A stretch of 26,223 nt of DNA from an uncultured Bacteroidales bacterium (GTDB lineage Bacteria > Bacteroidota > Bacteroidia > Bacteroidales > F082): the NCBI GenBank assembly GCA_905234765.1, contig CAJOIF010000042.1, positions 6,877 through 33,099 on the forward strand. The letters are read 5' to 3'. Below the pieces are notes generated by a model, which was not told where the DNA came from, made no database searches, and saw only the letters and a program-made list of their open reading frames with translations. Positions 49 to 26,223 of this stretch are shown one piece after another. How positions within the stretch are numbered: the first letter of the stretch is position 1; each line of letters begins with the position of its first letter. A program made the translations under genes and the position numbers.

Positions 49-99
49 AGTCTCGTAGTCTCGCGTCTTCTATGTAAACTAAATTTGAACATCTACTTA
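49..99. repeat. Degenerate copy (A) of the modular octamer hairpin repeat
   Basis: Two tandem octamers, AGTCTCGT and AGTCTCGC (49-64), are followed by GTCTTC and a flank whose reverse complement matches the left side of the element at 5661-5715. The shared blocks are TAAGTAGATG and GTTTACATA, separated by 10 bases in both places. Only one arm is recognisable here, so this is probably a decayed or truncated copy in inverted orientation relative to the one at 5661. The rest of positions 1-164 holds no gene that I can support. Confidence 0.6.
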
Positions 100-5530: not shown

Positions 5531-5581
5531 ATGGATTTCAATCATAAACCGTTGATTATTAATGTTTTAGGGGGGGGGTGA
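5531..5581 (+). CDS. Possible 16-codon leader ORF or gene remnant ending in a G9 tract
   Basis: ATG at 5531 opens a reading frame encoding MDFNHKPLIINVLGGG, closed by TGA immediately after nine consecutive G (5570-5578). With one more G the frame would extend 12 more codons, and with one fewer G eight more codons. It lies between the box at 5501 and a strong terminator. It could be a leader peptide, a length-variable switch, the fossil start of a lost gene, or non-coding. There is no homology evidence. Confidence 0.25.
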   Translation: MDFNHKPLIINVLGGG

Positions 5582-5660: not shown

Positions 5661-5767
5661 TAAGTAGATGAGCATGATTTGTTTACATAAAAGACTCGAG
5701 ACTTCGAGACGCGGGACGCGAGACATAAGCCTCGTCCCGTGTCCCGTAGTCCCGTGTCCCGTGTCAA
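5661..5767. repeat. Modular octamer hairpin repeat, copy B
   Basis: The left arm (5693-5724) is a tandem of GACTCGA, GACTTCGA, GACGCGG, GACGCGA and GAC. After a six-base loop (ATAAGC), the right arm (5731-5767) is a tandem of GTCCCGT/AGTCCCGT units ending GTCAAAA. The two arms form an imperfect long hairpin. The left flank (5661-5692) is homologous to the inverted flank of copy A near 71-99. Confidence 0.8.
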
Positions 5768-5817
5768 AAGAAATTGCAGTTTGATTTTGTACAGATATAT
5801 CAATTAACTTACTGAAA

Positions 5818-9758: not shown

Positions 9759-10048
9759 CATTTCTTACGATTCTCGACCCACACCCACAGCCGCCACATC
9801 AGCCAGCCCCAAGCAAAGAACAGCACATAGAAAATCCACTTGGGAACGGAGTTCTGAAAAGTGCCTTCGTGGTCGATTTGTTGGTATTGTTCAGTGGGGA
9901 TGTCGGCATAGTAATAGGCTCCCGCACCGAAGTCGTAGCCTTTGACGACTCCAAGTTTGTTGGCCATGATCCAGCCAGCCAAAAACAAAGTGATTACCAC
10001 CACGACGATGGTAATCACTTTGAATATCTTGTGGTTTCGGTTCATCAT
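9758..10048 (-). CDS. Small two-helix membrane protein partnered with the YeiH-family transporter
   Basis: This 96-residue protein has one hydrophobic helix at about 9-29 (IFKVITIVVVVITLFLAGWIM), a polar middle (VKGYDFGAGAYYYADIPTEQYQQ) and a second helix rich in Trp and Phe at about 70-90 (IFYVLFFAWGWLMWRLWVW), ending ENRKK. I do not recognise the family. Its ATG overlaps the stop of the YeiH-family gene by four bases, indicating translational coupling and probably a functional partnership, for example as an accessory subunit. The start could be the first or second of two adjacent ATG codons. Confidence 0.75.
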   Translation of the reverse strand: MMNRNHKIFKVITIVVVVITLFLAGWIMANKLGVVKGYDFGAGAYYYADIPTEQYQQIDHEGTFQNSVPKWIFYVLFFAWGWLMWRLWVWVENRKK

Positions 10049-11385
10049 TTGAACATGTCGAGGACAGGAACATCAAACACCACGCCTGAGAGCAGGAACC
10101 ACACGGCAAACAGTGTGAGTGCAATGTTGAACAACTGGCCGATGATGTAGAGCCAGAGCACCTTGCCGCCTTGCATCTGCTTGAAGAGGGCTTTGAAGTT
10201 GGTGTCGAGGCCGATGCTGGTGAAGGCCAGCACGAAAGCCCAGTTCTTGTATTGGTCGAGCACGCCGTTGATGGCTTTCACGTCGCCACCGAGGGGCTTG
10301 ACGATGAAGGAAGCCACGAGCGAGGCCACGAAGAAACCGATGATGAACTTCGGAAAGCGGTTCCAGATCTCGCCGGCACCGACCTTCTGGTTCGGGTCCT
10401 TGTCGACCTTGGTGGCGAAGAAGATGGCCACGAAGAAGGCGATGAAACCGATTAGGATGTTCTGGATGGACTTCACGAGCACGGCGGCCTGCTCGGCTTC
10501 CTCGCCGAGGGCGTTACCGGCCAGAACCACAGCACCCGTTGAATCGACTGTGCCTCCGATGAGCGACCCGCCCATGAGTTGGTTCATACCGCAGGCACGG
10601 ATGATCATGGGCTCAAACACCATCATCAGGATAGTGAAGATGATGGAAATGCTGATGGCCAACGAGAGGTCTTCCTTCTTTGCCTTCGATGCGGCTCCCG
10701 TAGCGATAGCAGCACTGGTACCGCACACCGAGGTGGCTGAAGCCAGTGTGATGACCAACGGCTTGTTGTCAATCTTCAAAACTTTGGTGCCTAACCACCA
10801 CATGAAGATGATGACGATGGGCGTCACGATCCAGGCGATGCCGAGACCATAGAGACCGAACTTGGCGATGTTGCTGAACAGCACCGAGAAGCCCATGATG
10901 ACCAAGCCCGTCTTGATGTAAAACTCGGTCTTGATGGCGGGTTTCAGCCATTCAGGTGTGCCGACGGTGTTGGAGATGAGCAGGCCGATGAGCAAAGCCC
11001 AGAAAGCCCACTCGAGGTACATCTTCAGGGTGAATTCGGCACTCACCATGCGCACGAGGATGGAGATGACGAACAGCACGATAAAAGCGGGGATGAACTT
11101 GCCGACCTTCTCACCGATCAGTTTGATGCCGATGGTGAACAGGATGCCGAGCACCAGAAAAGTGCGGAGTAGATTGCCCCAGAAGGCTCCGTTGAATTGT
11201 GATGCCAGTGATTTCTTTTCTTCAACGTTCTCCCACCAATGCCATGTGCCGAACTTGGCAGCGGAGAAGTCGAACGAACCGGTCAGGACGGCGATGCAGG
11301 CCACGGCGATGACGATGAAGCCGATCCAAACGGCCAGCCAGTCCTCTTTTTTCCAAAGGTTCGAGATGTTGTTGTTATTTGCCAT
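10045..11385 (-). CDS. YeiH-family putative sulfate exporter
   Basis: The 446-residue polytopic protein belongs to the YeiH/PF03601 family, annotated as putative sulfate exporters; the substrate is not firmly established. It has about ten hydrophobic segments, with the family hallmark SATSVCGTSAAIATGAA at around residues 216-231, then GGSLIGGTVDSTGAVVLAGN, and late FTSIGLDTNFKALF. It is longer than many YeiH proteins because of an N-terminal extension with an added helix (WLAVWIGFIVIAVACIAVL) and a periplasmic-looking segment. A weak AAGGAA ribosome-binding site is present. It lies downstream of the porin, separated by repeat copy C, and overlaps the small membrane protein gene by four bases. 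Confidence 0.88.
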   Translation of the reverse strand: MANNNNISNLWKKEDWLAVWIGFIVIAVACIAVLTGSFDFSAAKFGTWHWWENVEEKKSLASQFNGAFWGNLLRTFLVLGILFTIGIKLIGEKVGKFIPAFIVLFVISILVRMVSAEFTLKMYLEWAFWALLIGLLISNTVGTPEWLKPAIKTEFYIKTGLVIMGFSVLFSNIAKFGLYGLGIAWIVTPIVIIFMWWLGTKVLKIDNKPLVITLASATSVCGTSAAIATGAASKAKKEDLSLAISISIIFTILMMVFEPMIIRACGMNQLMGGSLIGGTVDSTGAVVLAGNALGEEAEQAAVLVKSIQNILIGFIAFFVAIFFATKVDKDPNQKVGAGEIWNRFPKFIIGFFVASLVASFIVKPLGGDVKAINGVLDQYKNWAFVLAFTSIGLDTNFKALFKQMQGGKVLWLYIIGQLFNIALTLFAVWFLLSGVVFDVPVLDMFK

Positions 11386-11398
11386 GATGTATTCCTTT

Positions 11399-11470
11399 TT
11401 TTGACTTCGAGACTTCGGGACGCGTGACTTCGAAATCCTAAGTCTCGTAGTTTCGCAGTCCCGCAGTCAA
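11399..11470. repeat. Modular octamer hairpin repeat, copy C
   Basis: On the plus strand TTTGACTTCGA, GACTTCGG, GACGCGT, GACTTCGA, an eight-base centre, then AGTCTCGT, AGTTTCGC, AGTCCCGC, AGTCAAA. The element occupies nearly all of the gap between the porin stop (11472) and the YeiH-family start (11385), so it lies inside the presumed polycistronic transcript. Confidence 0.85.
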
Positions 11471-11471
11471 A

Positions 11472-12707
11472 TTAAAACTTGAAGTTGACGGCAGCCACCA
11501 CGCGGTTGGCATAGGCTTTCTCGTATTTGGCGTTCTCGTTCAACGTGTAGCTCTCAATCAGCTGATAGTTGAGTTTGAGGTTCACATACTTGATGGGCCA
11601 GTAGCTGAGGCCAGCGGTGTAGAAGGTGGTGCCGCCTTTTTCAATTTCGGTGTCGGGCAGGAAGTGCTCGTAACGGAAGACAGGCATGAGTTGTTGGCTC
11701 TTTTCCTTGCCGAAACGGAAGTTGTAACCGGCCACGGCATAGTAACCATTGCTGAGGTAAGAGTCTTCGGAGATGATGTTGTTGAGGCTGTCAACAACAG
11801 TGTTATAGCCGGTTTTGCCGCTTATGTATTCGGAACGGAAGAGGATTTTGCCGTCGTTGTATTGCGCGCCAGCGGCCCAACGGTTACGGCTGCCTCTGTC
11901 GACGGTTTCATTGGAATACTTGCCGTTGTAGTACGAACCGCTGATAGTCAGGGCTTTCAGGCCAGGATGAAAGTCCAAACGGCCCACGATGTCCTTGCGA
12001 TTGTTGTTGTCGGCAGCGTTGGCACCATTGCCATTGAACACGCCGATGCTGTAGTCGACGATGTTGTATTTGATGCCTTCTTCTCCTTTGATTGGGAATA
12101 GGCTACCGGTGGCCATCATGCCGATGTCACGACCCATAGCCTTGACACCGCACATGTCCTTGTATCCGACGAGTTTGGTGATGACCTCGCCGTAATCATA
12201 GGTCTCAAGGTTGACAGGGTTGATGGGGCTCTCAATAGAGAAGGGAGTCTTGAACTGACCGACCTGGATGGCGAATTCGTTGCAGGGTTTGTACTTCACG
12301 AAAGCGTCGACCAATTGGGTGTCGTCAGCTTTGCCAAAGTTGCCTTGCAGTTTATAGGAGAACTTCTCGTTGAACTTGCCTTCCACCACCAGACGGGCAC
12401 GGCGCATCTTGAATTCGTTGTCCTGAAGTTTGCCCTTCTCGTCCATGTTGGCTGTGTAGAAGGTCTGTACGAAACCCGAAACCTTGACCAAATCAGGGCT
12501 GACTCTAGGCTCTTTCTTAGGTTCCTTTTTCTCTGGTTTTTCTGGTTTCTCAGGCTTTTCTGGTTTTTCAGCTTTCACCGTTTTTTCTGTTTTCGGCTGC
12601 ACTTCTTTGTTGTTTTTATCAGCCTTGACAACTTTTACTTGTGCGTTGAGACCCAATGGAATGGCTAAAAGCAGCATTCCGACAATGATGCGAAATTTGC
12701 GTTTCAT
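11472..12707 (-). CDS. Outer-membrane porin of the OprO/OprP (phosphate-selective porin) family
   Basis: The 411-residue product has a signal peptide (MKRKFRIIVGMLLLAIPLGLNAQ) and then a charged Lys/Glu/Pro linker with repeated EKP triplets (about residues 40-68). From about 75 comes a beta-barrel starting VSGFVQTFYTANMDEKGKLQDNEFKMRRARLVVEGKF, typical of the OprO/P family, with VGQFKTPFSIESP in the next strands. It ends in NFKF with C-terminal phenylalanine, as expected for an outer-membrane barrel. The anion specificity is not established by sequence; phosphate is the family prototype. The gene leads the porin/YeiH/small membrane protein unit and has a promoter overlapped by a palindrome. 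Confidence 0.88.
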   Translation of the reverse strand: MKRKFRIIVGMLLLAIPLGLNAQVKVVKADKNNKEVQPKTEKTVKAEKPEKPEKPEKPEKKEPKKEPRVSPDLVKVSGFVQTFYTANMDEKGKLQDNEFKMRRARLVVEGKFNEKFSYKLQGNFGKADDTQLVDAFVKYKPCNEFAIQVGQFKTPFSIESPINPVNLETYDYGEVITKLVGYKDMCGVKAMGRDIGMMATGSLFPIKGEEGIKYNIVDYSIGVFNGNGANAADNNNRKDIVGRLDFHPGLKALTISGSYYNGKYSNETVDRGSRNRWAAGAQYNDGKILFRSEYISGKTGYNTVVDSLNNIISEDSYLSNGYYAVAGYNFRFGKEKSQQLMPVFRYEHFLPDTEIEKGGTTFYTAGLSYWPIKYVNLKLNYQLIESYTLNENAKYEKAYANRVVAAVNFKF

Positions 12708-17001: not shown

Positions 17002-17019
17002 TTGAAAATCAATAAGATA

Positions 17020-19572
17020 ATGAAGAAAATATTCATCCTGATATGTTTCCTGTTTGGCCTTTTGTTTTCGGGTAACCTGAAAGCTCAGGCACCGATTGAG
17101 CGATCCAAAAACATTACCAAAATTGGAGGCAAGGAGTATTACCTGCACAGTGTGAAGTCGGGACAGACGCTTTATAGTATCTCGAAGGTTTATAACGTCT
17201 CCATCGAGGAAATCGAAAAGCTGAATCCCGATGTGAAGAAAGACGGCTTGAAAACGGGTCATGTGTTGGGTATCCCAGTGCGTCCTCTGCCAGAACAGAA
17301 GGTAGAGGAACCCGTTGTGGTACAGCCAGAACCCAAACCTGTTATTGAAGAACCTAAACCAGAGCCTGTTCCAGAGCCCGAACCGATAGTTGAAGAGCCA
17401 GAGCCCGAACCTGTTATAGAAGAGCCTATTCCTGAACCAGAGCCGATAATTGAGGAACCAGAACCTAAACCTATTATAGAGGAGCCTATTCCAGAGCCCG
17501 AACCGATAATCGAGGAACCGGAACCCGTTGTTGAAGAGCCGGAACCTGAGCCTATAATAGAGGAGCCTGTAATGGAACTAGAACCGATAGTCGAAGAGCC
17601 GGAACCTGAACCTATTATAGAGGAGCCTATTCCAGAGTCAGAGCCTGTCATTGAGGAGCCTGTCCCAGAACCGGAACCGATTATCGAAGAACCAGAACCA
17701 GAGCCGATTATTGAAGAGCCTGAACCCATTATCGAAGAAATTGAACCTGTTGTAGAAGAGCCTGAGTCGATAGTGGAAGAACAGGAACCTGAGCCAGTGA
17801 CGGTGAAAGTAGGAGGGCGTCATACCGTTCAACCCAACGAGGACCTATACGACATCGCCAAACTCTATGGCATCGACATCGCTGATTTCAAGGCGATTAA
17901 TCCTGGCATAAGCAATGAGCCTTTCGCTGGGATGTACGTTCGTGTGCCGGACATTGTGAACGAGAACGATTATATTGTCCATAAATGTGAATACAACGAA
18001 CGCACGGCATCCCTGCTGAAACGTTGGAAAGTCAAGGAAAGCGAGTTCCGTGCCTTGAATATTTCAGTCGGAACACATGTGTTTGTCAATCAAATTGTTA
18101 TGATTCCAATTCGGCCTGTAAAGTCGGAGCGGGAACCAGTCGAAGAGCCGCAAGTGGAGGTAGTGGAAGAGCCGGTGCAACCGCAGGAGGCACCCGTGGC
18201 GACAGAGGAGCCTGAACCATCGCAGGAAGTTCCTGTTGCGATAGAAGAACCAGCCATTATTTACAGTGAGCCGGTGCCCACTCCTGAGTGCTATTCCGAC
18301 CCTGACAACGCCTATCGGCGTTACAAGGTGGCGTTGTTGGTGCCGCTTTATCTCAATGAAGTGAGTGGTCTCGACATTGCTAAAGGCCAAAAAGCGCGTC
18401 CTCTTTCGTTTCTGCCGTTTTACGAAGGTTTTATGATGGCCGTTGAACAAATGGTGGAAGAGGAAGACTTGAAACTGGACTTGACTGTTTTGGATGTCAC
18501 CGATAATGTGAGTACTGCTCAAAATGCTTTGGAAAAAATTGAACGTCAGCACTTTGATATGATTATTGGCCCGTTCTTCGGCAAATCGTTTGCTATCATA
18601 GAGGAGTATGCCAAGGCGCATGACATCCTTGTGGTGAACCCGCTTTCGACCCGAAACGAAGTCGTTGAAGGCAACTCCAATGTCATCAAGTTGAAACCTT
18701 CTCCGAACGGACAGATTCTCGACATTGCTTATTTGGTGCGCAACCATTACCCCAATGCCAACGTGTTCATTCTCAGCCGCGAAAAAGTAGCCGACTCATT
18801 GTTTTTGTCACGTTTGGAGAGTGAGTTGAACATCGCCGTCAATGATGAGGTGACCGTTGAGGGAAGCGACTTCCTTCAATATGCTCGTGAGGAAAGTCAA
18901 CGTTTGAAAATGGGGAGCCGTATGGTGTCGACCATCACCGTGGAAGGTCAAGTGTACTCCACCAACGATTTGAAAGACGGTGCCGTAGGCCGAGTGGTGC
19001 TTTCCAATCTTGTACATCGTTATGAATACAATTCGGAGAACATCCGTTCGTTGCTTTCGCAATTGTCGGGCGTGCGTGACAACGTCATTATCGCTTACGG
19101 GGATGACAACGTGTTTGCCACCCAGGTGCTCAATACACTGAAGAAAGAAGCCGACCGATTCCCCATCATTTTGGTCTGCGCCCCCGATTGGACGAAATTC
19201 GAGAAGCTTCTTGTGGATAATTTGCTGCAAATGAACGCCATATATCTTACTGATAATTTCGTGGATTATCGCAGCGATGAGGCCAAACGCTTTGTCATGG
19301 ATTTTAGGCAGAAATATGCCGTTGAGCCTCAAAATTACGCCTTTGAGGGTTACGATGTGGCGCGTTATTTCCTGACAGCCTTGATGCGTTATGGTAGTGG
19401 GATGAAGGAGTGTCTGCCTTATTTCACGATGCCGATGCTCCATACGAGCTACCATTTCATGCAAAAGGGGATGGGCGATGGTCTTGAAAATCAGAATTGG
19501 ATTATGTACCAATATGACAATCAAGAAGTTGAACTTGTTCCAATCAATCCTTTCAAAAAGCCCGTGGAATGA
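17020..19572 (+). CDS. LysM cell-wall-binding protein fused to a type 1 periplasmic-binding-protein domain
   Basis: The 850-residue exported protein (signal [23 protein letters not shown]) has LysM domains at about residues 40-87 ([20 protein letters not shown]), 264-311 ([19 protein letters not shown]) and 316-365 (more divergent). A roughly 170-residue Pro/Glu-rich region of PEP-I-(I/V)-EEP repeats lies between the first two. After a second acidic linker, residues about 430-850 form a class 1 periplasmic-binding fold beginning [16 protein letters not shown]. LysM should bind peptidoglycan; the binding-fold ligand is unknown and could be regulatory as in LpoA. An in-frame TTG at 17002 is possible but ATG 17020 precedes a clean signal peptide. 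It overlaps the next gene by four bases. Confidence 0.88.
17320..17790 (+). repeat. Coding tandem repeat, Pro-Glu-rich spacer in the LysM protein
   Basis: Degenerate units encoding PEP(I/V)IEEPEP-type motifs repeat about fifteen times between the first two LysM domains. Third positions vary, indicating selection on the protein. It is a rigid acidic spacer, and a likely place for copy-number variation between strains. Confidence 0.8.
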
Positions 19573-24375: not shown

Positions 24376-24765
24376 CTACATTTCGTCTTTCATCCGTTCA
24401 ATCATACGACGTTCCTTCTTGGTCGGGCGACCAGCACCGCGGTCGCGCCACTCGGCTTTGTAGGCGTGCATGAACTCGATGCGCTCGTATTCCTCCTTGG
24501 GCGTGAGGTCGGTGTAGACTTCAGGTACTTGCTTGGCTGAAACGCGGTTTTTGATGACGGTTTTCACTTCCACCACCTTATGAAGTTGGTCGATTTGCAC
24601 TTGGATGACATCGCCTACCTTCACCTCACGCGATGGCTTGACGGGATTGTCGTCCATTTTCACTTTGCCGCCCTTGATGGCATCGGCAGCCAACGAGCGC
24701 GTCTTAAAGAGGCGCGCCGCCCACAGCCATTTGTCCATCCGGACGATGTTTTCTTCGTTTTCCAT
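24376..24765 (-). CDS. RNA-binding S4-domain protein, Hsp15-like
   Basis: The 129-residue protein is an S4-domain protein of the Hsp15 (HslR) type. The S4 motif runs from residue 10 through RMDKWLWAARLFKTRSLAADAIKGGKVKMDDNPVKPSREVKVGDVI. It continues with VQIDQLHKVVEVK and a basic C-terminal tail (RGAGRPTKKERRMIERMKDEM). Hsp15 recognises stalled 50S subunits carrying a nascent chain; that role is inferred here. It lies downstream of der across an 89-base gap almost entirely filled by repeat copy D. Confidence 0.9.
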   Translation of the reverse strand: MENEENIVRMDKWLWAARLFKTRSLAADAIKGGKVKMDDNPVKPSREVKVGDVIQVQIDQLHKVVEVKTVIKNRVSAKQVPEVYTDLTPKEEYERIEFMHAYKAEWRDRGAGRPTKKERRMIERMKDEM

Positions 24766-24768
24766 TGT

Positions 24769-24848
24769 TTTTGACTTCGGAACTTCGGGACTTCGAGACG
24801 GCGGGGATTGGCATGTCTCGTAGTCCCGCAGTCTCGTAGTCTCGTGTC
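24769..24848. repeat. Modular octamer hairpin repeat, copy D
   Basis: On the plus strand TTTTGACTTCGG, AACTTCGG, GACTTCGA, GACGGCGG, then a centre and GTCTCGT, AGTCCCGC, AGTCTCGT, AGTCTCGT, GTCAAAA. The ends TTTTGAC and GTCAAAA are perfect inverted repeats. It fills nearly all the gap between der (stop 24855) and the S4 gene (start 24765), in the same relation to genes as copy C. Confidence 0.88.
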
Positions 24849-24854
24849 AAAATA

Positions 24855-26162
24855 TTACTTCTCCTTGAAGATGAGTTGAATCGGCACGCCGTTGAAGTCC
24901 CAGGTCTCACGCAACTTGTTCTCCAAGAAGCGTTTGTAGTTCTCCTTCACGTCTTTGGGCAGGTTGCAGAAGAAGATGAACTGCGGAGTACGGCCTTTCA
25001 GTTGGGTGATGTATTTGATGCGGAGGAAACGTCCGCGCGAGGCCGTCTGTAGCGGCACGGAGTTGATGATTTCTAGCATTTGGTCGTTCAGTTCGCGGAC
25101 GGGGATACGGCGTTCGCGGTTCTCGTAAACCTTATGCGCTGTTTCCAGAACCTTATAGATGCGCTGCTTGTTGATGGCCGAGGTGAAGATGATGGGATAG
25201 TCGGTGAACGGTGCCGTCCGCGAACGGATGAGCTCTTCGTAAGCCAAGTGCGTGTTGGAGTCTTTCTCCACAAGGTCCCACTTGTTGACGACCATCACCA
25301 AGCCTTTCTTGTTCTTCTCGATGAGGTGCAGGATGTTCATGTCTTGGGCCTCAAAGCCTTGTGTCGCATCAAGCATGAGAATGGCCACGTCGCAGTCCTC
25401 GATGGCACGCACGGAGCGCAGCACGGAGTAGAACTCGATGTCTTCCTCCACCTTGCTCTTCTTGCGGAGACCGGCGGTATCAACAAGCATGAACTCCATG
25501 CCAAAGGCGTTGTAGCGCGTGTAGTTGGCGTCGCGGGTGGTGCCTGCGATGTCGGTCACAATGTGACGGTCTGTGCCCAAAAAAGCGTTGATTAAGGATG
25601 ACTTGCCCACATTCGGGCGCCCCACCACGGTGAAACGGGGCAGGTCGGTATTGAAGTCGGTGGTGTCGGAGGGCAGCAGCTCGCAGACCTTGTCCAATAG
25701 GTCGCCTGTGCCTGTGCCGGTCATGGCCGACATGGGGTAGGGCTCGCCCAGACCCAAGGCGTAGAACTCACTCGCCAGTACTTCCTTGCTTGGCTCGTCT
25801 ATCTTGTTGACAGCCAATAAGACAGGTTTTTTCTGCTGTCTCAGGATGGCTGCCACATCTTCGTCAAGGACATGGAGCCCTTCGCGACCATCTACGATAA
25901 AGACGATGACATCGGCCTCGTCGATAGCCAGGTCCACCTGCTTGCGGATTTCTTCTTCAAAGATGTCGTCCGACCCCACCACATAACCGCCGGTGTCGAT
26001 GACGGTGAATTCCTTACCATTCCAATCGCTCTTGCCGTAGTGCCTGTCGCGCGTCACGCCACTCGTCTCTTCCACGATGGCCATGCGCTGCTTCAGCAGA
26101 CGGTTGAACAGCGTCGATTTTCCTACATTGGGTCTCCCCACTATTGCTACAATGTTTGACAT
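24855..26162 (-). CDS. der: Ribosome biogenesis GTPase Der (EngA)
   Basis: Der is the tandem-GTPase factor for 50S subunit assembly. With the start at 26162 ([17 protein letters not shown]) the protein has 435 residues. It has two G domains, each with a GRPNVGKS P-loop (about residues 8-15 and, in the second domain, after FTVVGRPN). DTGGYV and DTAGLRKKS are the G3 motifs, and NKID and NKWDLV the G4 motifs. The KH-like C-terminal domain ends with [15 protein letters not shown]. An upstream in-frame ATG at 26222 would add 20 residues but spans the promoter box, so it is rejected. It precedes the S4 gene. Confidence 0.97.
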
Positions 26163-26188
26163 GTCTTTGATGGTTTTATTTTTGGCTG

Positions 26189-26196
26189 CAAAAATA
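26189..26196 (-). promoter_or_regulatory. der promoter, -7 box TATTTTTG
   Basis: Minus-strand TATTTTTG followed by CAGCC lies 27 bases before the der ATG. A TTTG at the window edge (26223-26220) is 23 bases upstream. The location supports the start at 26162. Confidence 0.55.
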
Positions 26197-26223
26197 CTCA
26201 AAATTCCCCGAAATTTTGACAAA

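Follow-up and report, generated by a model that had tools for sequence, protein, structure and literature searches.

The DNA analysed here, referred to throughout as the window, is a stretch of 26,223 nucleotides from an uncultured Bacteroidales bacterium. A repeat built from short units with a conserved GAC occupies several of its intergenic gaps. The copies of this GAC family and the genes flanking two of them are as follows (genomes, contigs and loci of relatives carry our own G, C and L numbers):

Copy A, about 48-67, no strand assigned: lone right arm of the AGTCTCG type
Copy B, 5693..5768, minus strand: GAC family, mostly 7-mers
YeiH-family gene (PF03601), 10045..11385, minus strand: downstream gene of copy C
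Copy C, 11399..11470, minus strand: GAC-family 7/8-mer hairpin, by sequence and fold
Porin O/P gene (PF07396), 11472..12707, minus strand: upstream gene of copy C
S4-domain protein gene (PF01479), 24376..24765, minus strand: downstream gene of copy D
Copy D, 24769..24848, minus strand: GAC family, between der and the S4 gene
der/engA GTPase gene (PF01926, PF14714), 24855..26222, minus strand: upstream gene of copy D

The first-pass annotation had described copies C and D as filling the gaps between co-directional genes, and the coordinates, reading frames and protein families bear this out. In gene direction, copy C starts 1 nt past the porin stop and stops 13 nt short of the YeiH-family start; copy D starts 6 nt past the Der stop and stops 3 nt short of the S4-protein start. 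Both copies stand, and copy B and the lone arm A are now added to them. The arm polarity of copy B is weak (few 8-mers), and its reversed orientation relative to the flanking plus-strand called genes makes it an exception. Read in mRNA sense, on the minus strand, copy C proceeds from a GACTRCGR arm through a loop to a YCGAAGTC arm and an A-run.

An Rfam search of the window at the gathering score returned no family for the hairpin; its sole match was an ordinary RNase P RNA of class A (RF00010, 9375-9729). The window also holds a nine-G run with no clear gene around it (5570-5578), possibly unstable in length, and a repeated coding segment (17295-17795, spacing of about 60 nt) inside the 17002-19572 frame. 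A second common sequence (GTTTACATA.../TTGCAGTTTAATTTTGAACA), perhaps a promoter or leader, adjoins some copies of the hairpin (window 50-99 and 5661-5710; L087, L091, L140 and L145).

Units, fold and pairing of the arms

Each arm is a chain of GAC-(T)N-CG-R units in which the 8-mer GACTNCGR is mixed with the 7-mer GACNCGR, two bases separating GAC from CG in the former and one in the latter. In gene direction, the 5' arm consists mostly of GACTGCGR, GACTACGR, GACACGR or GACGCGR and the 3' arm of YCGAAGTC (8-mer) or YCGTGTC/YCGCGTC (7-mer). The octamers of the first-pass annotation are therefore genuine units, but the arms are not purely octameric, since 7-mers are mixed in. The regularly interrupted stem that it proposed was also recovered, in a different form: instead of one mismatched pair of neighbouring bases, each 8-mer has two separate sites of interruption, N5 and R8, on either side of a paired CG. 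Two further properties had been set as checks, and both were found. The window holds 19 two-unit seeds, whereas 200 first-order Markov sequences held 0.45 on average and never more than 3, and both copies fold into the interrupted stem on either strand (C, -28.5 and -26.9 kcal/mol; D, -37.8 and -35.3 kcal/mol).

To describe the family more broadly, we assembled 61 distinct two-armed elements, a set extended to 78 with 17 from G403, and a second set of 40 more from L211-L280, mainly from G443, G450 and G004. Both sets are biased to the search pattern and leave out lone arms and the long-loop copies L241/L242. Orientation was taken from the variable base of the 8-mers and could be assigned in 74 of the 78 and 39 of the 40 elements. 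This base is G108 A74 T5 C4 in the 191 8-mers of the 5' arms and, in reverse complement, T170 A20 G9 C7 in the 206 of the 3' arms, a difference partly built in because the same base defines orientation. The relation of orientation to the genes is not built in by this definition.

The two arms of an element keep a common register. Facing units match in length more frequently than they do after arms have been swapped between elements, whether counted from the outer ends (0.670 versus 0.600, P=0.0025) or from the loop (0.682 versus 0.593, 0/2000), and the excess recurs in the second set (P=0.035 and 0.0135). Compensatory covariation at R8 was expected, and the opposite was seen. Agreement of the R8 purines is rarer than with exchanged arms, both from the outer ends (0.298 versus 0.401, 0/2000) and from the loop (0.335 versus 0.413, P=0.004), and again in the second set (0.284 versus 0.430, 0/2000; from the loop 0.303 versus 0.442, P=0.0005). 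Both results hold when a single element is drawn per homologous-flank group (113 elements, 72 groups, three draws), with outer R8 agreement of 0.288-0.294 versus about 0.42 (0/1000 in each draw) and P of 0.002-0.008 for the lengths. Where two 8-mers face each other, the combinations most frequent at N5 are G or A opposite A. The stem thus stays in register, while two positions of each 8-mer forgo Watson-Crick pairing.

Folding energies were compared over the 74 oriented elements of the first set. The mean is -36.9 kcal/mol for sense RNA versus -41.1 kcal/mol for antisense, which folds better in 58 of the 74. When all arms are given a common artificial loop, own arms are weaker than exchanged ones by 1.4 kcal/mol in sense (weaker in 41/74, P=0.0125) and by 1.0 kcal/mol in antisense (42/74, P=0.10). 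One reading of this avoidance of pairing is that selection, acting at the DNA or the RNA level, disfavours perfect palindromes or long RNA duplexes.

Some elements depart from the usual architecture. In L241 (G443 C45) and L243 (G443 C75), one arm reaches about 8 to 11 octamers or more and the other is short. Other hairpin repeats, of the CCTTCGACAGG and CCCCCTTTCAAGGGGG types, are nested in the loops of GAC elements at L119, L127, L129 and L187 (G403 C16 near 337742).

Spread, position and orientation

A search with the YeiH-family protein yielded 364 relatives, of which 80 were kept; all are metagenome-assembled genomes (MAGs) titled Bacteroidales, Bacteroidia or, in one case, Bacteroidaceae, many of them from ruminants by title. 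The GACTNCGRGACTNCGRGAC pattern, with at most one mismatch, occurs in all ten genomes tested, with 2 to 86 matches each, whereas the reversed pattern used as a control gave one match over all ten. As an exact 19-mer, it is present in 32 of the 60 genomes sampled from the genus to which G005 belongs, with 0 to 57 matches per genome, and in 2 of 393 genomes of an order-wide sample, namely the centre G005 itself and G001. In Bacteroidales MAGs, the GAC hairpin is an interspersed repeat bound to one clade and very uneven in copy number. Copies beyond the window, the remaining check of the first-pass annotation, thus exist in 10/10 genomes tested and 32/60 of the genus, and its view of an interspersed intercistronic hairpin repeat is supported by this spread together with the gene context.

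Gene context was obtained with a home-made gene caller. In the first set, 52 of the 74 oriented elements lie between two genes of one direction with the A-end downstream and 7 are reversed; the remainder comprises 5 divergent and 1 convergent placements, 2 at a contig end and 7 inside a called frame, several of these frames looking over-long. The bias is weaker in the second set, where 22 of 39 are concordant, 7 reversed, 7 divergent, 2 in frame and 1 at an end. Over both sets (113 oriented elements), 74 lie between co-directional genes and have the A-run on the side of the downstream start, compared with 14 reversed, copy B among them. As a comparison, the gaps of at least 60 nt in the 660 kb of G403 include 234 co-directional, 62 divergent and 28 convergent ones. 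In the 52 concordant elements of the first set, the median distance is 6 nt from the stop to the first seed and 23 nt from the last seed to the start. The four bases past the last GTC are A in 67, 64, 63 and 60 of the 74 elements, respectively. Judged from position and orientation, the element would be consistent with a role in mRNA processing or expression.

Orthologous junctions offer a view of occupied and unoccupied sites. By eye, stop/start junctions of sister species fall into three kinds: nearly gapless ones, ones with a GAC hairpin and ones with different repeats, several of which are hairpins. At the recF junction, ten loci include four gaps of 1-3 nt, three GAC elements (L010, with the arms reversed; L014, degenerate; L017), two heptamer hairpins (L013 and L046) and one other hairpin (L007). 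The near-empty recF junctions lack an A-run, so that the A-run in L014 probably arrived with the insert. No target-site duplication, a criterion for MITEs, is evident between occupied and near-empty recF junctions, which offer few nucleotides to compare.

At the der-S4 junction, 30 loci were inspected by eye in a printed 125 nt that did not always reach the der stop, and only some were folded; L236, where no start was found, and L235 and L238, which have another upstream gene, were set aside. In the remaining 27, the stop and start overlap in two (L228, L233); the rest divide into loci with a GAC element (four), a CGTCATTGCGAGG repeat (six), a TTAGCTA heptamer repeat (five) or a AAGAAATC repeat (four) and six others, two of them linear and heptamer-like. 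At this one junction, the gap has been opened by repeats of several unrelated kinds.

Unrelated hairpin-like repeats (TTTCGACAGGCTCA; CGTCATTGCGAGGAACGAAGCAATCC) were also noted at the same intercistronic junctions (L003, L007 and L016; L211, L213, L214 and L224-L226). Linear heptamer arrays whose sequences differ by species precede one shared start codon (L009 16906-16959, L027 18551-18589, L029 17617-17662).

Units of seven or eight bases are not particular to the GAC family. Over the 1.42 Mb of the window plus its 80 relatives, intergenic tandem arrays have period 7 in 30 cases, 8 in four and 9 in one, with none at periods 4-6 and 10-15; 34 of the 35 are thus at 7 or 8. Over the 660 kb of G403, the counts are 16 at period 7, 10 at period 8, one each at 11 and 12 and none at 5, 6, 9 and 10, that is, 26 of 28 at 7 or 8. 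For frames of at least 120 codons, some of which may be spurious where they bear arrays, the counts are highest at periods 7 (24 arrays), 12 (10) and 6 (6), and every other period has 0-2.

PF05635 genes between inverted repeat arms

At one position in two genomes, L241 (G443) and L242 (G001), the GAC family encloses a gene: the arms lie about 430 nt apart around a same-sense gene of 115 codons. Its product belongs to PF05635, the 23S rRNA-intervening sequence protein (IVP; E about 3e-30), with a match to TIGR02436 and a solved relative, 2GSC (E=4e-11). Both copies precede similar downstream proteins and therefore probably represent one event. The loops of copies C and D and of 118 short-loop elements have no room for such an S23p/IVP frame.

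PF05635 genes are frequent in these bacteria, with matches in 23 of 25 genomes (the 25 being 23 members of the genus sample together with G001 and G009), and they are common also in genomes without the GAC pattern. Of 30 IVP loci, 27 were usable, L301-L303 being excluded because they are cut by contig ends. The inverted similarity of the two flanks exceeds that of all 100 shuffles in 24 of the 27 (not in L286, L299 and L308), and L286, the TTAGCTR IVP locus of G004, barely misses it (24 versus 25). Among control genes of similar size, 12 of the 250 sampled pass the same test. The presence of PF05635 genes between inverted arms of 7/8-mer repeats, at 24/27 loci versus 12/250 controls, is the main new result of this study.

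The arm sequences vary by IVP group (TTAGCTA, TGACCCTGAC, TTGGCTA, GAATGCT, AGTTTAG, AACTGAAC and others). Their period is more constant: 45 of 54 IVP flanks have their best self-lag at 7 or 8, versus 48 of 294 flanks of control genes, which all come from the genus and are matched in size rather than in position. Strongly periodic flanks (at least 0.8) make up 36/54 and 23/294, respectively, with lag 7 or 8 in 35 and 18; that 18 of the 23 control flanks also have these lags follows from the abundance of such arrays in genomes of the genus. In a phylum-wide sample, PF05635 has a match in 75 of 99 genomes. From it, the 29 best-scoring new loci were taken; the strict inverted-arm test is passed by 9 of them, and 47 of their 58 flanks have the best lag at 7 or 8, with controls from the genus only. 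Of the 27 IVP genes, 19 lie between two genes of the same direction, 6 share it with the upstream gene only, 1 with the downstream gene only and 1 with neither, so the next gene runs the opposite way after 7 of the 27.

In G005, G443 and G421, TTAGCTR matches in opposite orientations enclose an IVP gene, and each genome has more matches elsewhere; gene-bearing and gene-less forms of one arm family therefore share a genome. In G004, this pattern catches the left arm and the right arm is visible in the sequence only. G403 has 42 exact matches of the GAC pattern and no IVP gene was found in it, so that either IVP is dispensable for persistence or this MAG is incomplete. The association of arms with IVP genes is the solid part of these results; the mechanism considered below is inference.

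Origin of the hairpins and relation to known systems

We consider it probable that the octamer hairpin consists of the arms alone of an element that resembles the intervening sequences (IVS) of 23S rRNA and resides in the gaps between cistrons. The computed part of this reading comprises the copy number, the clade restriction, the stop/start position, the orientation bias, the 7/8-mer arms, the IVP genes between arms, and the occurrence, within one genome, of copies of one arm family with and without IVP. The full-length form would consist of a tandem 7/8-mer arm, a PF05635 gene encoding a 23S_rRNA_IVP four-helix bundle, the inverted arm and often an A-run, followed by the next start codon. 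Once transcribed, the hairpin would be cleaved or bypassed without harm to the product of either cistron, and insertion between cistrons would be tolerated for the same reason as that of an IVS in an rRNA helix. The A-run may supply the downstream gene with its own initiation region of the Bacteroidota type, the regular loss of Watson-Crick pairs may prevent a perfect palindrome or long RNA duplex in the stem, and IVP or a partner acting in trans could spread the arms. Taken together, this suggests that the 23S rRNA inserts belong to a wider class of elements colonising intergenic gaps.

We regard it as unlikely that the hairpin is instead a DNA repeat of REP/BIME or MITE type, non-autonomous and mobilised by a Y1 or other transposase, with the IVP genes as passengers that landed in loops. 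REP/BIME sequences are multi-copy intergenic hairpins associated with RAYT. The GAC elements are likewise multi-copy hairpins between genes, some copies hold other hairpin repeats in the loop, and Y1_Tnp (RAYT-like) genes are present in 11/11 copy-rich genomes. These genes also occur in 6/11 copy-free genomes, however, a tendency rather than a clean association, and inspection by eye of three of the five Y1 matches of G403 showed no copy of the repeat in the flanks as printed, from which the nearest 50-100 nt were missing. Membership of the REP/BIME group, an analogy raised by the first-pass annotation, thus finds no clear support but keeps a low probability. The arms of tandem 7/8-mers and the orientation with transcription (74 versus 14) also differ from REP/BIME; a DNA transposon would not itself impose such a bias, although selection could. 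Passengers, moreover, poorly explain IVP genes between arms of many different sequences.

A host-selected regulatory module is a doubtful alternative, in which a hairpin and A-run at tight operon junctions would uncouple translation or stabilise or process the mRNA, the origin of the sequence being secondary. It would fit the bimodal gaps at some orthologous junctions, the several different repeats at a single junction and the variable purine that avoids Watson-Crick pairing. The A-run before the start agrees with it too, the phylum being described as favouring A-rich leaders and low structure for initiation (PMC6847099). Many orthologous junctions without a hairpin and the range of 0 to 57 matches among the 60 genus genomes argue against it.

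The IVS-like reading could be carried further, speculatively and with little confidence on our part. The IVP gene with its 7/8-mer arms would be the autonomous form, and the arms alone the non-autonomous form, of an RNA-level mobile element inserting in transcript sense at stop/start junctions, perhaps through reverse transcription with IVP as an Avd-like partner. PF05635 is reported to resemble Avd of diversity-generating retroelements (PMC10053308). Genes for reverse transcriptase (PF00078) follow no pattern (15/19 genomes, 10/12 copy-rich and 5/7 copy-free). If such mobility were true, 23S IVSs, intergenic heptamer arrays and the IVP genes of cas operons would be traces of one class. An intrinsic terminator or simple slippage product is very improbable despite the stable hairpin and tandem units, since A rather than T follows the hairpin in gene direction (60-67/74 at positions 1-4), the T-run of the opposite strand precedes the hairpin, and slippage alone yields no inverted arm with matching unit lengths.

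The IVS-like reading would link three loose ends: the unexplained 7/8-mer arrays between genes, the four-helix-bundle genes of PF05635, which have no assigned function, and the inserts (IVS) in 23S rRNA. On this reading, IVP genes should be found between 7/8-mer arms far outside rRNA as well. Those reported in cas loci, including one that lies between cmr3 and cmr2 (PMC3936711), could be read as intercistronic insertions instead of CRISPR parts. A stem that stays in register and yet regularly avoids Watson-Crick pairs is unusual, and it is testable.

Several known repeats resemble the GAC family in part. Cyanobacterial STRR are heptameric tandem repeats of intergenic DNA and are not known to have been described as enclosing an IVP gene with their arms. 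The hallmark that STRR share with TAACTGA repeats, tandem 7-mers between genes, is found in the GAC family as well, here mixed with 8-mers. The TAACTGA heptamers are described from Beggiatoaceae, mostly close upstream of start codons, and at other positions from cyanobacteria and five Bacteroidetes (PMC4679880). They are intergenic and tandem like the GAC units, but are presented as direct repeats. The terms 'S23', 'four helix' and 'intervening sequence' are absent from the main text of that paper, which was the sole close one among the open-access matches listed on heptamers, REP and intercistronic repeats; in RepRanger (PMC12306157), the one passage with Bacteroid- is a table row on other genera. 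Among the matches listed, again from open-access literature only, there was no description of IVP genes between 7/8-mer arms in intercistronic gaps.

The closest system is the 23S rRNA IVS, a hairpin with a PF05635 gene in its loop (PMC4990558). The IVS of Coxiella is 428 nt long, lies in helix 45 of 23S rRNA, carries an S23p frame in the loop and is excised by RNase III; its stem of 28 bp has one mismatch and one bulge, and its 5' region contains three tandem heptamers, or two in some strains (PMC4990558). The statement of the first-pass annotation that no described element is built this way was thus only partly right, with IVS hairpins bearing a PF05635 gene and the heptamers of Coxiella coming close (PMC4990558). 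The GAC elements have the inverted arms that form a stem in an IVS, and the family shares with the Coxiella element a mismatched stem and tandem heptamers and, at L241/L242, a PF05635-type gene in the loop (PMC4990558). They differ in arms that are 7/8-mer throughout and in being mostly gene-less. Because they lie between protein genes and not in a 23S rRNA helix, we call them IVS-like rather than IVS.
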